Source: a virus. From it: a DNA stretch of 48,515 nucleotides. Below are positions 39,709-42,377 of this stretch, piece by piece. Where the stretch lies: the IMG/VR virus record IMGVR_UViG_3300045284_000270, positions 1 through 48,515 of that record, one strand, 5' to 3'. The notes beneath the pieces were generated by a model that made no database searches, was not told the origin of the DNA, and saw nothing but the letters and a program-made list of their open reading frames with translations. Positions within the stretch are counted from its first letter, which is position 1. Every line of letters starts with the position of its first letter. Position numbers and translations under genes: made by a program.

Positions 39709-39870
39709 TTAGCCCTCCTGGTTGGCTTGGTGGATCGCGTCGGCGAGCAGGTTGCCGTCCTCGACGGTCAGCATGCAACGGGACATCGGGTGGGCGCGCT
39801 CGTAGGCGCGAAGCTTCTGTGCATTCTTGAGGGTGGGGGCGGCGCGGTAGGCGAGAAGCAGCTTGGTCAT
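39709..39870 (-). CDS. 53-aa hypothetical protein with hairpin leader
   Basis: 53 aa: MTKLLLAYRAAPTLKNAQKLRAYERAHPMSRCML, then VEDGNLLADAIHQA. Start at 39870 has GGAG at good distance inside the shared CAGGAGCC box and the leader hairpin. An in-frame ATG at 39936 would add MAHHYERRG..., a start shared in form with the gene at 41788. No family recognised. Confidence 0.55.
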   Translation of the reverse strand: MTKLLLAYRAAPTLKNAQKLRAYERAHPMSRCMLTVEDGNLLADAIHQANQEG

Positions 39871-39888: not shown

Positions 39889-39907
39889 GCCGGCGACCAC
39901 CGCCGGC
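39889..39907 (-). promoter_or_regulatory. Leader hairpin 1 (loop GGTGGTC)
   Basis: Minus strand: GCCGGC stem, GGTGGTC, GCCGGC, then 18 nt to the ATG containing CAGGAGCC. Loop and Shine-Dalgarno box are identical to those before integrase and the gene at 41788, while the stem sequence differs. Confidence 0.55.
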
Positions 39908-39965
39908 AGACCCCTTCTCTCATAGTGGTGTGCCATAGTCAACAGGGTGGTCTGTGGAAAAGCGA

Positions 39966-40004
39966 AGGCCCCACCGAGGAGCCCGCTAGGGATCGGTGAG
40001 GCCT
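39966..40004. terminator. Inverted repeat downstream of excisionase
   Basis: AGGCCCCACCGA (39966-39977) and TCGGTGAGGCCT (39993-40004) form a 12-bp stem with one mismatch and a 15-nt loop. Not followed by a T-run on either strand; it may weaken read-through between excisionase and the two small genes. Confidence 0.35.
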
Positions 40005-40018
40005 AAGGGAACCTTAAC

Positions 40019-40037
40019 AGCGTTGGTGGTCAACGCT
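40019..40037 (-). other. Hairpin with complementary loop at excisionase 3' end
   Basis: On the minus strand the stem AGCGTT / AACGCT encloses GACCACC, the exact complement of the GGTGGTC loop in the three leader hairpins. It spans the last codons and stop of the excisionase gene. Could be that gene's terminator hairpin, or a partner in loop-loop pairing. Confidence 0.5.
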
Positions 40038-40338
40038 GAGGCTTACGCGGCTCCGCTTTCGCTATAGCGCGATCCCGCCGGCGGATGAAAGCACGGATGT
40101 CGGACACCCGGTAGTAGGGCGTCTCATCGGGCGGGCAGCGGGTGATCTTGGGGCCGGTCCCCTTCTTGGCCCAGAGCTCCGCGGTGGGGATCGCGATCCC
40201 CACCCAGGCGCACATTCCGTGGCGGGTCAGCAGGTAGCTGGCCTGCATCGTGTTGGGGGCAAAGGTGAGCTCGGGGCGCGAGCGCGAGGGGCGCTTCCAA
40301 CCCGGCTTGTGGCGATCGACGTTGCGGTCCTTGGGCAT
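40030..40338 (-). CDS. xis: Excisionase-like winged-helix protein
   Basis: 102 aa. Basic N-terminus (MPKDRNVDRHKPGWKRPSRSR), then a MerR/AlpA/Xis-type segment: LLTRHGMCAWVGIAIPTAELWAKKGTGPKITRC, TPYYRVSDIRAFIRRRD. That is the helix, turn, W-x-x-x-G-x-GP wing and final YRVSDI..FI helix usual in recombination directionality factors. Location just downstream of integrase on the same strand supports the role: it would bend att DNA and favour excision. GGGGTG four nt before the ATG at 40338 selects the start; the frame is open to 40407. Confidence 0.7.
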   Translation of the reverse strand: MPKDRNVDRHKPGWKRPSRSRPELTFAPNTMQASYLLTRHGMCAWVGIAIPTAELWAKKGTGPKITRCPPDETPYYRVSDIRAFIRRRDRAIAKAEPRKPQR

Positions 40339-40522
40339 ATGGCACCCCATATCCTCGTTGCAATCTCGTTGCAATTCTTGACCGAAACTAACCGTTTTGG
40401 GGCTCATTTAACCGTTCCTTCGTGTGTCGTGTGGGAGGTGAGAAGTGCCTGTGCCACAGGGGTTTCTGGGGGTTTTGCGAGATGGTTTTCGGTTCGCGTC
40501 ACAATCCACAAGGACTTTCTAG
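40339..40522. other. Gap between excisionase start and integrase end; possible attP
   Basis: 184 bp without a gene. It contains a pair of ATTGCAACG repeats (40354-40377), a pair of TAACCGTT direct repeats about 20 bp apart near 40390-40420, and GGTTCG followed by CAATCC near 40490-40510. The place is reasonable for attP, but no tRNA-like core is clear. Confidence 0.35.
40354..40377. repeat. Tandem ATTGCAACGAG 11-mers, copy 2
   Basis: Two minus-strand ATTGCAACG copies with 11-bp period just upstream of the excisionase ATG, matching the arrangement at 501-522 and 40565-40586. Probable protein-binding site. Confidence 0.5.
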
Positions 40523-41734
40523 TTATCGCTGTGCCGCAATGAGTTTCAGGGGTGGTGTGAGGCTCCGTTGCAATTCGGTTGCAATCTTTTCGGCGAGCGC
40601 GTCCTTGGCCTCGCCGACCTCAACGTCGGTCACCTTGGCGTAGTGCTTCAGCGTGATGGCGATAGAAGCGTGATTGAGAGCGCGGCTGACGTTCTCGATG
40701 CGGACGCCGGCGCGCAACATCCAGGTGGCCGCGGTGTGGCGCAGCGTGTGGATGGTGACGCCCTCGATGCCGAGCTTGGTCACCACGTTGTTGAACGCCA
40801 CCCGCAGCGTTGCGTAGTCGAGCGGATAGCGCTCGCCGCGGACGTGGCTGCAGAGGTCTTCCTTCGTGATGCGGTGGATGAAGGTCTGGGTCCGCTGCGA
40901 CACGAACGTGAACACGCGATCGGTCTTTGCCGGCGCGCCACCCTGGTGCTGGTGCTGGCGGCGCAGGATCGCGAGCTCGGCCTTGCCGAGCGTCTCGATC
41001 GAGCGCTTGCCGCCCTTCGTGCGCAGACGCATCGTCGGGTGTGCCATATCGAAGTCAACCTGCTCCCAGGTCAGGCTGAGTATCTCGTCGATGCGCTTTG
41101 CGCTCGCGAGCGCGAACCAGATCACGTCATGCAGGTCGGGGCGCAGCGCGGTGAGGATCGCGTTGAGCTCGTCCTTGGTCAGCACCCTGATCTCGTGCTC
41201 GTCGGTCTTCAGCGCGAGGTCGCCCCAACGGATCGGCGCGATCGGTGCCGCGTGATGCAGGTTGGCATAGTTGAGGATTGCCGCGAACGTGTGCAGCGTA
41301 TTGTTGACGGTGCTGTCCTTCACCTTGCGGGTGCCGTTCACTGCGCAGAAGCGCTCGGTGTCGCGGCGCGCCTCGCGCACGCGAATGATGAGCGGCGCCT
41401 TGATGTCCTGCAGCAGAGTGTTCTCGCCGACCGCATCGCGCAGCCAGGTGATCACCTCAGGGCGCGGCTTGGCGTTATGGCGATCGCGCTCGTTCGCCCA
41501 GATGGCGCAAGCCTGGCCGAAGGTCATCGGGGTGAGGCCGAGCGCGACGTGATGCTTGGCCTGGCCGAGCACCTCTGCCTTGCGCGCGGCTGCGAAGGCT
41601 TCCGCCTTCTTGCGATCGGTGAGCAGCGTCTCGCCTGAGTACTGCTTGCCGTTGACGTTGAAGCGGTACAGCCAGGGGAGATCAGCGCCGCGGCGCTGCA
41701 CCAGCTTGCCGGTGAGGATGGGGGCTTTGCTCAT
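40523..41734 (-). CDS. int: Tyrosine recombinase integrase
   Basis: 403 aa. N-terminal arm-binding domain (residues 1-65, with beta strands around LYRFNVNGKQYSGETL), core-binding helices 70-170, catalytic domain 180-385. Catalytic set: R214 (ASAKRIDEILSLTW), K240 or K243 (RTKGGKRS), H329 and R332 (HTLRHTAATWML), H355 (LNHASIAI) and nucleophile Y365 (TLKHYAKV). It catalyses integration into the host chromosome, with the excisionase for the reverse. The start at 41734 has AGGAG six nt upstream; an in-frame extension to 41893 is not used. The C-terminal codons IATELQR carry an ATTGCAACGGA tandem repeat. A leader hairpin (41755-41777) precedes it. Confidence 0.92.
   Translation of the reverse strand: MSKAPILTGKLVQRRGADLPWLYRFNVNGKQYSGETLLTDRKKAEAFAAARKAEVLGQAKHHVALGLTPMTFGQACAIWANERDRHNAKPRPEVITWLRDAVGENTLLQDIKAPLIIRVREARRDTERFCAVNGTRKVKDSTVNNTLHTFAAILNYANLHHAAPIAPIRWGDLALKTDEHEIRVLTKDELNAILTALRPDLHDVIWFALASAKRIDEILSLTWEQVDFDMAHPTMRLRTKGGKRSIETLGKAELAILRRQHQHQGGAPAKTDRVFTFVSQRTQTFIHRITKEDLCSHVRGERYPLDYATLRVAFNNVVTKLGIEGVTIHTLRHTAATWMLRAGVRIENVSRALNHASIAITLKHYAKVTDVEVGEAKDALAEKIATELQRSLTPPLKLIAAQR
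40565..40586. repeat. Tandem ATTGCAACGGA 11-mers, copy 3
   Basis: Lies in the 3' end of the integrase gene, minus strand, 21 of 22 bases identical to 501-522. Flanks are unrelated, so the similarity is confined to the unit. Confidence 0.6.
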
Positions 41735-41754
41735 GACGGGCTCCTGAGAGAGTT

Positions 41755-41777
41755 GGGGCCCCGACCACCGGGGCCCC
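41755..41777 (-). promoter_or_regulatory. Leader hairpin 2, before integrase (loop GGTGGTC)
   Basis: Minus strand: GGGGCCCC, GGTGGTC, GGGGCCCC, then 20 nt to the integrase ATG with CAGGAGCC. The strongest stem of the set. It sits between the stop of the upstream gene and integrase, so it could also attenuate transcription, but it lacks a U-run. Confidence 0.6.
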
Positions 41778-41787
41778 GCTGTGAGGG

Positions 41788-42096
41788 TTAGAATATCTTC
41801 GGGAAGCGCTGGGCCAGGAGCGCCGGCCCCTCCTTGATCTTGCCCGCCTTGATGTCGGCGACACGCTGGTCGGCCTTCAGTTCGAGCGCGCACTGCATGT
41901 CGCGGAGCGCCTCCGCGCGCTGCGCACGCTTCTCCTCGAACTCAGCGGCATTGTGCTCGTCGAGGATGGTGTCCTTGGCGAACAGAAAGTCATCGGCCTC
42001 GCCCGCGCCGTAGCCGAGGCGTTCGAGTTGGATCAGTGCATACTCGTAGCTGCACCGGGCGGCGAGGTAGTCACGCTTGATCTGGTTGTCAGTCAT
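41788..42096 (-). CDS. Helical hypothetical protein
   Basis: 102 aa, strongly charged and helical (YLAARCSYEYALIQLERLGYGAGEADDFLFAKD, then AAEFEEKRAQRAEALRDMQCALELKADQRVADIKAGKIKEG). AGGAG six nt before the ATG at 42096 sets the start; an in-frame ATG at 42150 gives an alternative MAHH... N-terminus. Cotranscribed with integrase. Function unknown. Confidence 0.6.
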   Translation of the reverse strand: MTDNQIKRDYLAARCSYEYALIQLERLGYGAGEADDFLFAKDTILDEHNAAEFEEKRAQRAEALRDMQCALELKADQRVADIKAGKIKEGPALLAQRFPKIF

Positions 42097-42377
42097 CTGA
42101 GGCTCCTGTTTTCGGGCCCGACCACCGGGCCACTGCGCATGGTGTGCCATATCCTGGCGACCTCGTCAACACCGAAGTAGCGCCGCTCGCCTGGCCCCCT
42201 AAACCCCTTGTGGCGCCATGCTATTTTGCCGGCATCGCAGAGGCCGCGCAGCGTCGAGTGATGCATGCCGAGCAGCCTTGCGGTCGCCGGCAGGCTCAGC
42301 AGGGTGCGATCAGCGAAGGCCTCGCGCACACGATCAGGCAGGTCATCCAGCCGGGGCTTCGGGTTCATGATCGGCAT
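42093..42377 (-). CDS. MerR/AlpA-like DNA-binding protein
   Basis: 94 aa. LSLPATARLLGMHHSTLRGLCDAGKIAWRH, then RRYFGVDEVARIWHTM: helix-turn-helix plus wing and final helix, the layout of excisionases and phage DNA-binding regulators. The C-terminal codons pass through leader hairpin 3. ATGA overlap with the next gene. No clear Shine-Dalgarno; ATGs at 42377 and 42368 both possible, the first slightly favoured by GGTG upstream. Confidence 0.6.
   Translation of the reverse strand: MPIMNPKPRLDDLPDRVREAFADRTLLSLPATARLLGMHHSTLRGLCDAGKIAWRHKGFRGPGERRYFGVDEVARIWHTMRSGPVVGPENRSLR
42115..42131 (-). promoter_or_regulatory. Leader hairpin 3 (loop GGTGGTC)
   Basis: Minus strand: GGCCC, GGTGGTC, GGGCC, then 18 nt to the ATG at 42096 containing CAGGAGCC. 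Inside the end of the upstream reading frame. Confidence 0.5.

Follow-up and report, generated by a model that had tools for sequence, protein, structure and literature searches.

Leader hairpins with one fixed loop and a complementary 3′-end module around a phage integrase gene look like an RNA switch

Why should a phage carry the same unpaired loop, on stems that all differ, ahead of its integrase gene and two neighboring genes, and the complement of that loop at the end of the integrase/excisionase (int/xis) transcript? The question arises in the 48,515-nucleotide (nt) stretch analyzed here, positions 1 to 48,515 of IMG/VR virus record IMGVR_UViG_3300045284_000270, which we call the window. 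An original prediction, made from the letters alone, had described three minus-strand hairpins with an identical loop, each followed by AGGAGCC and an ATG, and a fourth with the complementary loop (here the anti-hairpin) over the stop codon of an excisionase gene. The hairpin coordinates, the identical loop, AGGAGCC and the spacing to the ATG (18, 20 and 18 nt for hairpins 1, 2 and 3) were all confirmed on the sequence. The fourth hairpin has the complementary loop and overlaps the stop codon as described, but it is one pair longer than proposed (40038-40018 rather than 40037-40019). Judged from sequence, the layout looks like a built-in RNA switch, with a loop shared among leaders and, in a putative 3′ RNA, matches to that loop as well as to the ribosome-binding site. 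The elements concerned are the following.

42115..42131, minus strand: leader hairpin 1, GGCCCG-GUGGU-CGGGCC, 6 bp including the inner G-C pair; covariance score 26.4 bits
42101..42107, minus strand: Shine-Dalgarno sequence AGGAGCC of the 102-amino-acid (aa) gene, complementary to the terminator apex GGGCUCCU (predicted pairing)
41755..41777, minus strand: leader hairpin 2, GGGGCCCCG-GUGGU-CGGGGCCCC, 9 bp, intergenic, before the integrase gene; 31.3 bits
41739..41745, minus strand: Shine-Dalgarno sequence AGGAGCC(CG) of the integrase gene, a 9-bp complement with the terminator apex (GGAGCCCGU / GCGGGCUCC)
40018..40038, minus strand: anti-hairpin CAGCGUUG-ACCAC-CAACGCUG, 8 bp; its loop complements the leader loops, and it contains the TGA of the excisionase-like open reading frame (ORF)
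39967..40003, minus strand: terminator-like hairpin; apex with a CCC-NNNN-GGG mini-stem and unpaired CUCC, GGGCUCC at 39984-39978
39889..39907, minus strand: leader hairpin 3, GCCGGCG-GUGGU-CGCCGGC, 7 bp, before the 53-aa gene; 27.8 bits
39875..39881, minus strand: Shine-Dalgarno sequence AGGAGCC of the 53-aa gene, predicted to pair with the terminator apex

Along the minus strand the order is a helix-turn-helix (HTH) gene, hairpin 1, the 102-aa gene, hairpin 2, integrase, the excisionase-like gene, the anti-hairpin, the terminator, hairpin 3 and the 53-aa gene. The three leader hairpins share the G-GUGGU-C loop on stems that are all different, each upstream of AGGAGCC and an ATG; hairpin 1, which precedes the 102-aa gene, shares its sequence in part with the end of the HTH ORF upstream. 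Four hairpins of at least 6 bp surround a GUGGU in the window, while 300 dinucleotide shuffles gave none in 291 cases and one in 9. Permuting the flanks of the window's 117 real GUGGU sites gave a mean of 0.15 such hairpins (maximum 3). The word GGTGGTC alone is not rare in the window (29 against 7 expected), so the signal lies in pairing and position. Hairpins 2 and 3 and the anti-hairpin are each predicted to be paired with P ~0.99, and the folding of positions 39960-40050 gives z = -5.0.

A search of a viral collection with the loop and AGGAGCC yielded L026 (record G001) and L131 (record G002) as its two real relatives, which share most genes with the window at ~50-75% amino-acid identity. 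Leaders with the same loop on other stems occur three times in G001 and twice in G002. Since stems differ under a fixed loop in the window and both relatives, the earlier argument from varying but paired stems to RNA function stands. In a survey of 7,242 SD-ATG (Shine-Dalgarno and start codon) sites, mostly from viral loci, the GGTGGTC loop stood at two or more leaders only in the window, G001 and G002. Covariation counts on A2 were not used as proof, because its rows had been chosen for their stems; permutation tests were used instead.

All three phages also share a 3′ module. At the end of their int or xis region stands a hairpin whose loop contains ACCAC; GTTAAG, nine bases and a strong terminator-like hairpin follow, and the apex of the latter has in every case CCC-NNNN-GGG and then unpaired CUCC. 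The anti-hairpin is kept in G002 and kept with an altered stem in G001. When 2.9 million viral contigs were searched independently with the pattern of this module, it retrieved nothing beyond the two relatives and a single chance match in coding sequence. This chance match (L645), considered as a fourth module, was rejected as lying in coding DNA without leaders.

The integrase of G002 is 60% identical to that of the window, and the leader there directly precedes the integrase gene. The 102-aa gene is missing from G002, and so hairpin and gene behave as a module. The integrase of G001 has no BLASTP similarity to that of the window, yet a leader hairpin and the 3′ module are present. In G001 the module follows this different integrase with no excisionase recognized between them, and it therefore looks like a 3′-end module of the int transcript rather than an excisionase-specific one. 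The specific coupling of integrase levels to excisionase levels that was first proposed is not supported. The proposed loop-loop pairing between excisionase mRNA and the leaders is credible, given that both relatives keep the hairpin with the complementary loop at the same place, but the proposal missed a second complementarity.

This second match lies between the terminator apex, GGGCUCC, and the GGAGCC(C) ribosome-binding sites of the hairpin-led genes. GGAGCC occurs at 7 of 8 hairpin-led starts compared with 7 of ~120 other GGAG starts, and the 16S rRNA anti-Shine-Dalgarno sequence does not demand the GCC extension. In nearly every leader, the two top-scoring predicted contacts with the module are Shine-Dalgarno:GGGCUCC and GUGGU:ACCAC. 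Ranked by predicted interaction among gene starts, two window leaders came 1 and 2 of 95 and a G002 leader 1 of 43; the ranking omits one leader of the window and one of G002, because a longer ORF start displaced theirs. The complementarity of the terminator apex to these ribosome-binding sites is newly noticed here.

The explanation we favor tentatively, stopping short of calling it probable, is a phage-internal RNA regulon in which the 3′-end int/xis RNA would pair with leader loop and Shine-Dalgarno sequence and repress several leaders. Each controlled gene would have an mRNA leader that exposes the G-C-closed GUGGU loop and then the Shine-Dalgarno sequence AGGAGCC. Two hairpins would form in the 3′ end of the int/xis transcript, be it a separate small RNA or a stretch of the mRNA, with the ACCAC loop of the anti-hairpin kissing the leader GUGGU loop and GGGCUCC of the terminator hairpin pairing with the Shine-Dalgarno sequence. 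Both contacts together would block ribosome entry at several leaders, including that of integrase itself. What the genomes show directly is the anatomy, loops held constant on stems that differ across three phages, the two complementarities and the survival of leader and module after integrase replacement. We infer that the 3′-end RNA is made and stable, pairs in trans and represses. If this is true, integrase and its companion genes are under an RNA code of the temperate phage's own, with anti-loop and anti-Shine-Dalgarno sequence in one 3′-end RNA facing the shared leader loop, and a post-transcriptional layer would be added to the integration decision.

The same leader hairpin also occurs in unrelated phages, a point that the original prediction missed as well. 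Among viral contigs matching CGGTGGTCGS-AGGAG-ATG, at least 5 extra stem pairs were found in 13 of 76 (0.93 expected; 0 of 2000 permutations). In a stricter set, from which first-pass matches inside forward ORFs (e.g., L297 and L367) had been set aside, at least 4 extra pairs were found in 9 of 28 (1.5 expected; 0 of 5000 permutations). Two control loops, the reversed complement and the 16S complement GGTGATC (0 against 0.43 expected), stayed flat at leaders. Among the genes behind the clear cases are those for a RecE-like exonuclease (L302) and for exonuclease VIII (L285), along with genes of unknown function; most of these phages lack the GCC extension. The leader hairpin thus occurs in phages in at least two settings, with the anti-module a property of the window's family. 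The GGUGGUC loop may also have a role that needs no partner.

Two side observations belong with this group. L299 and L327 have a similar promoter-like TTGACA ... GTGCTAG followed directly by GGGCG-GUGGU-CGCCC and ATAGGAGA, ahead of short genes of unknown function. In Pseudomonas phage vB_Pae-SS2019XI (L271, 7378-7400), a 10-bp GGUGGUC-capped hairpin separates the major capsid gene from the gene that comes next, as it does in two related records (L304 and L309); more distant Casjensviridae phages have hairpins with other loops after the major capsid gene.

Besides the three phages, the survey of SD-ATG sites, made within records, turned up two further designs with other fixed loops. In G778 (L676-L682; IMGVR_UViG_2932604667_000002), the loop GAGAGCGAC leads ~30 gene starts over 127 kb; its stems vary in part with pairing kept (e.g., TAGGCCCG/CGGGCCTA), and most of the leaders sit behind a repeated promoter-like TTAAATACCGGTAC element. 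G779 (L683-L685; IMGVR_UViG_3300004481_000056) has five leaders with the loop GGGTCGCC on different stems, a repeated promoter-like GTAACGGTTCTGCTAGGCT upstream, and GGAAGCG or a close variant and then the Shine-Dalgarno sequence downstream. Phages might widely use such loop-coded leader hairpins, each with a fixed phage-specific loop and free stems, to mark gene sets for joint post-transcriptional control, the reader in the window's family being an RNA that derives from the tail of the integration operon and carries anti-loop and anti-Shine-Dalgarno sequence. We regard this generalization as speculative and rather unlikely. Should the RNA regulon proposed for the window be real, a constant loop, a variable stem and a fixed distance to the start codon would amount to a simple sequence rule for finding phage regulons, as the ~30- and 5-copy examples suggest.

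Several observations weigh against an RNA regulon at the int/xis operon. Weighing most is the lack of any variation in the loop among the three phages, which form one family; because it never changes, no covariation between loop and anti-loop is visible. The anti-hairpin stem is interrupted in G001, where specificity is also weaker, the leaders ranking 2, 7 and 11 of 82 starts. Hairpin 1 is not the minimum-energy fold of its full leader, since at equilibrium it competes with a fold that pairs the Shine-Dalgarno sequence and reaches -17.5 compared with -14.7 kcal/mol; this competitor arises once the Shine-Dalgarno sequence has been transcribed. The order of the two contacts is unlike that of a simple antisense duplex, and the region of the 3′ module yielded no clear promoter from which a separate RNA could start. 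In six whole or near-whole records of the unrelated phages (G003, G010, G011, G012, G016 and G022) no anti-hairpin was found, so the loop must have some further use open to it.

The main rival to RNA pairing is a loop-binding protein. A phage or host RNA-binding protein would read the GUGGU loop beside the Shine-Dalgarno sequence and repress or activate translation, and the anti-hairpin would be a decoy or be read on the other strand. A pentaloop that stays fixed on free stems is what protein-bound hairpins typically show, and phage translational operators (MS2 coat, T4 RegA/gp43) place a fixed-loop hairpin beside the Shine-Dalgarno sequence. The enrichment of the loop at leaders of many unrelated phages seemingly without an anti-hairpin fits this explanation, as do the many fixed-loop leaders of G778, where no anti-loop hairpin was seen. 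However, the conserved anti-hairpin and the terminator-matching GCC extension would be left unexplained. The window differs from the known operators in having several element-bearing genes and an anti-hairpin, and Pfam and PHROG searches of the neighboring genes identified no candidate RNA-binding protein. Hosts, moreover, seem not to place the hairpin ahead of genes of their own: we rejected host-wide use when the inspected covariance matches in 398 Pseudomonadota genomes proved essentially all coding, mostly Ala-Val-Val-Ala codons. We consider a loop-binding protein a serious possibility, though unlikely on balance.

A hairpin with a structural task only, either protecting the mRNA 5′ end or isolating the start from upstream translation, would make the loop a stable cap and the anti-hairpin a coincidence. 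It would suit the hairpins just downstream of promoter-like sequence in L026, L285, L299, L327, L294 and L100, and that of SS2019XI, which follows the major capsid gene where relatives have terminator-like hairpins with other loops. Hairpin 2 of the window is internal to its transcript, however, the two control loops show no leader enrichment, and GUGGU is uncommon among hairpins generally (3 of 459 pentaloop hairpins); we judge a purely structural role improbable. A DNA-level element, that is, inverted repeats bound by a repressor, integrase or excisionase, or module boundaries, seems very improbable. The repeats do lie on both sides of the integration module, with one copy inverted; L131 lacks the gene-A module, and an operator-like 12-mer (below) lies close to two of the repeats. 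But a free stem with a fixed unpaired loop is the opposite of a DNA operator, and the repeats hold a fixed position relative to Shine-Dalgarno sequence and ATG in an orientation that follows the gene. Finally, the loop might attract ribosomes by pairing with the tail of 16S rRNA at its 3′ end (GAUCACC), which GGUGGUC permits with one G-U pair. We give this reading almost no weight and rejected it, because the perfect complement GGTGATC shows no enrichment in leader hairpins.

The RNA-pairing model has partial counterparts in known systems. In OxyS-fhlA, as summarized in a passage citing Argaman and Altuvia 2000 (PMC2946933), stem-loops of one RNA make two kissing contacts on the target mRNA, one of them at the ribosome-binding site. 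The likeness lies in the two-site kissing predicted for the window, which would include the ribosome-binding site. According to that summary, OxyS is a stand-alone host RNA with its second contact in the coding sequence, whereas the model for the window has a phage int/xis 3′ end, both contacts upstream of the ATG and one loop for several leaders. EcpR1 of Sinorhizobium meliloti is a trans-acting RNA that represses target mRNAs via a strongly conserved loop (PMC4414408). It offers a rhizobial case of loop-mediated repression, but it is host-encoded, has cell-cycle targets and is unrelated in sequence.

In Cluster K mycobacteriophages, the conserved SAS motif GGGATAGGAGCCC, which contains AGGAGCC, lies at the ribosome-binding sites of several unrelated genes, and half of the copies have an inverted-repeat element (ESAS) just upstream (PMC3203893). 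SAS-like motifs also occur in Microbacterium phages (PMC7302621). The layout is similar, with a ribosome-binding-site motif containing AGGAGCC before unrelated genes, but the conserved 13-mer GGGATAGGAGCCC does not stand at the start sites here; AGGAGCC alone is shared, and the bases preceding it differ among leaders. ESAS consists of 17-bp imperfect inverted repeats with conserved sequence and a variable spacer, and the Cluster K authors saw little support for RNA pairing and favored DNA-binding proteins (PMC3203893). In the window, by contrast, it is the arms that vary, with pairing kept, and the loop that is fixed, and there is a complementary module. Rfam gave 0 matches at gathering score in the window and weak sub-threshold matches in this region. 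The loop, GUGGU, is not the GNRA-like loop of a lambda-type boxB. Our searches of the open-licence literature found no description of the element; among the matches listed, those to the loop sequence looked like chance primer or adapter likenesses and were rejected.

The original prediction named relatives without the loop or the stem pairing as evidence against it; G001 and G002 keep both, but the element is absent from the more distant isolates Rhizobium phage RHph_N65 and Microcystis phage Mae-Yong1326-1 (annotated packaged-DNA stabilisation protein), which are the nearest isolated relatives by structural gene. No close prophage relative was found in 397 genomes (integrase query) or 385 (the structural gene resembling a packaged-DNA stabilisation protein), and none was found in the plasmids searched.

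The genes around the hairpins, and the 12-mer mentioned above, are as follows.

41788..42096, minus strand: 102-aa gene, function unknown, no Pfam or PHROG match
40523..41734, minus strand: tyrosine integrase, 403 aa (Pfam PF00589, E=8e-26; phrog_1, E=1e-50)
40030..40407, minus strand: excisionase-like gene, 125 aa; homolog in G002
39709..39870, minus strand: 53-aa gene, no family match (Pfam, PHROG)
39926..39937, minus strand: operator-like 12-mer TATGGCACACCA, ahead of hairpin 3; second copy at 42151-42140

The gene before the anti-hairpin, taken at first to be an excisionase, matches phrog_66 weakly (E=0.0027), and the assignment is correspondingly weak. The HTH ORF (42093-42377, minus strand) runs through hairpin 1, where GGCCCGGTGGTCGGGCCC is readable as Gly-Pro-Val-Val-Gly-Pro; the end of the equivalent HTH ORF of L131 reads APVVGA (GPVVGP in the window). 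Coding and RNA constraint overlap in this region.

An extra GGTGGTC, not seen in G002, lies on the plus strand at 39946-39952, between ACAG/CTGT arms just outside the terminator. The two copies of TATGGCACACCA, ahead of hairpins 1 and 3, are identical. At the same place, the relatives have GTGCC-N4-GGCAC palindromes (L026) or GTGGCACACCAC before the leader (L131/G002). TATGGCACACCA and these counterparts are possibly repressor operators.

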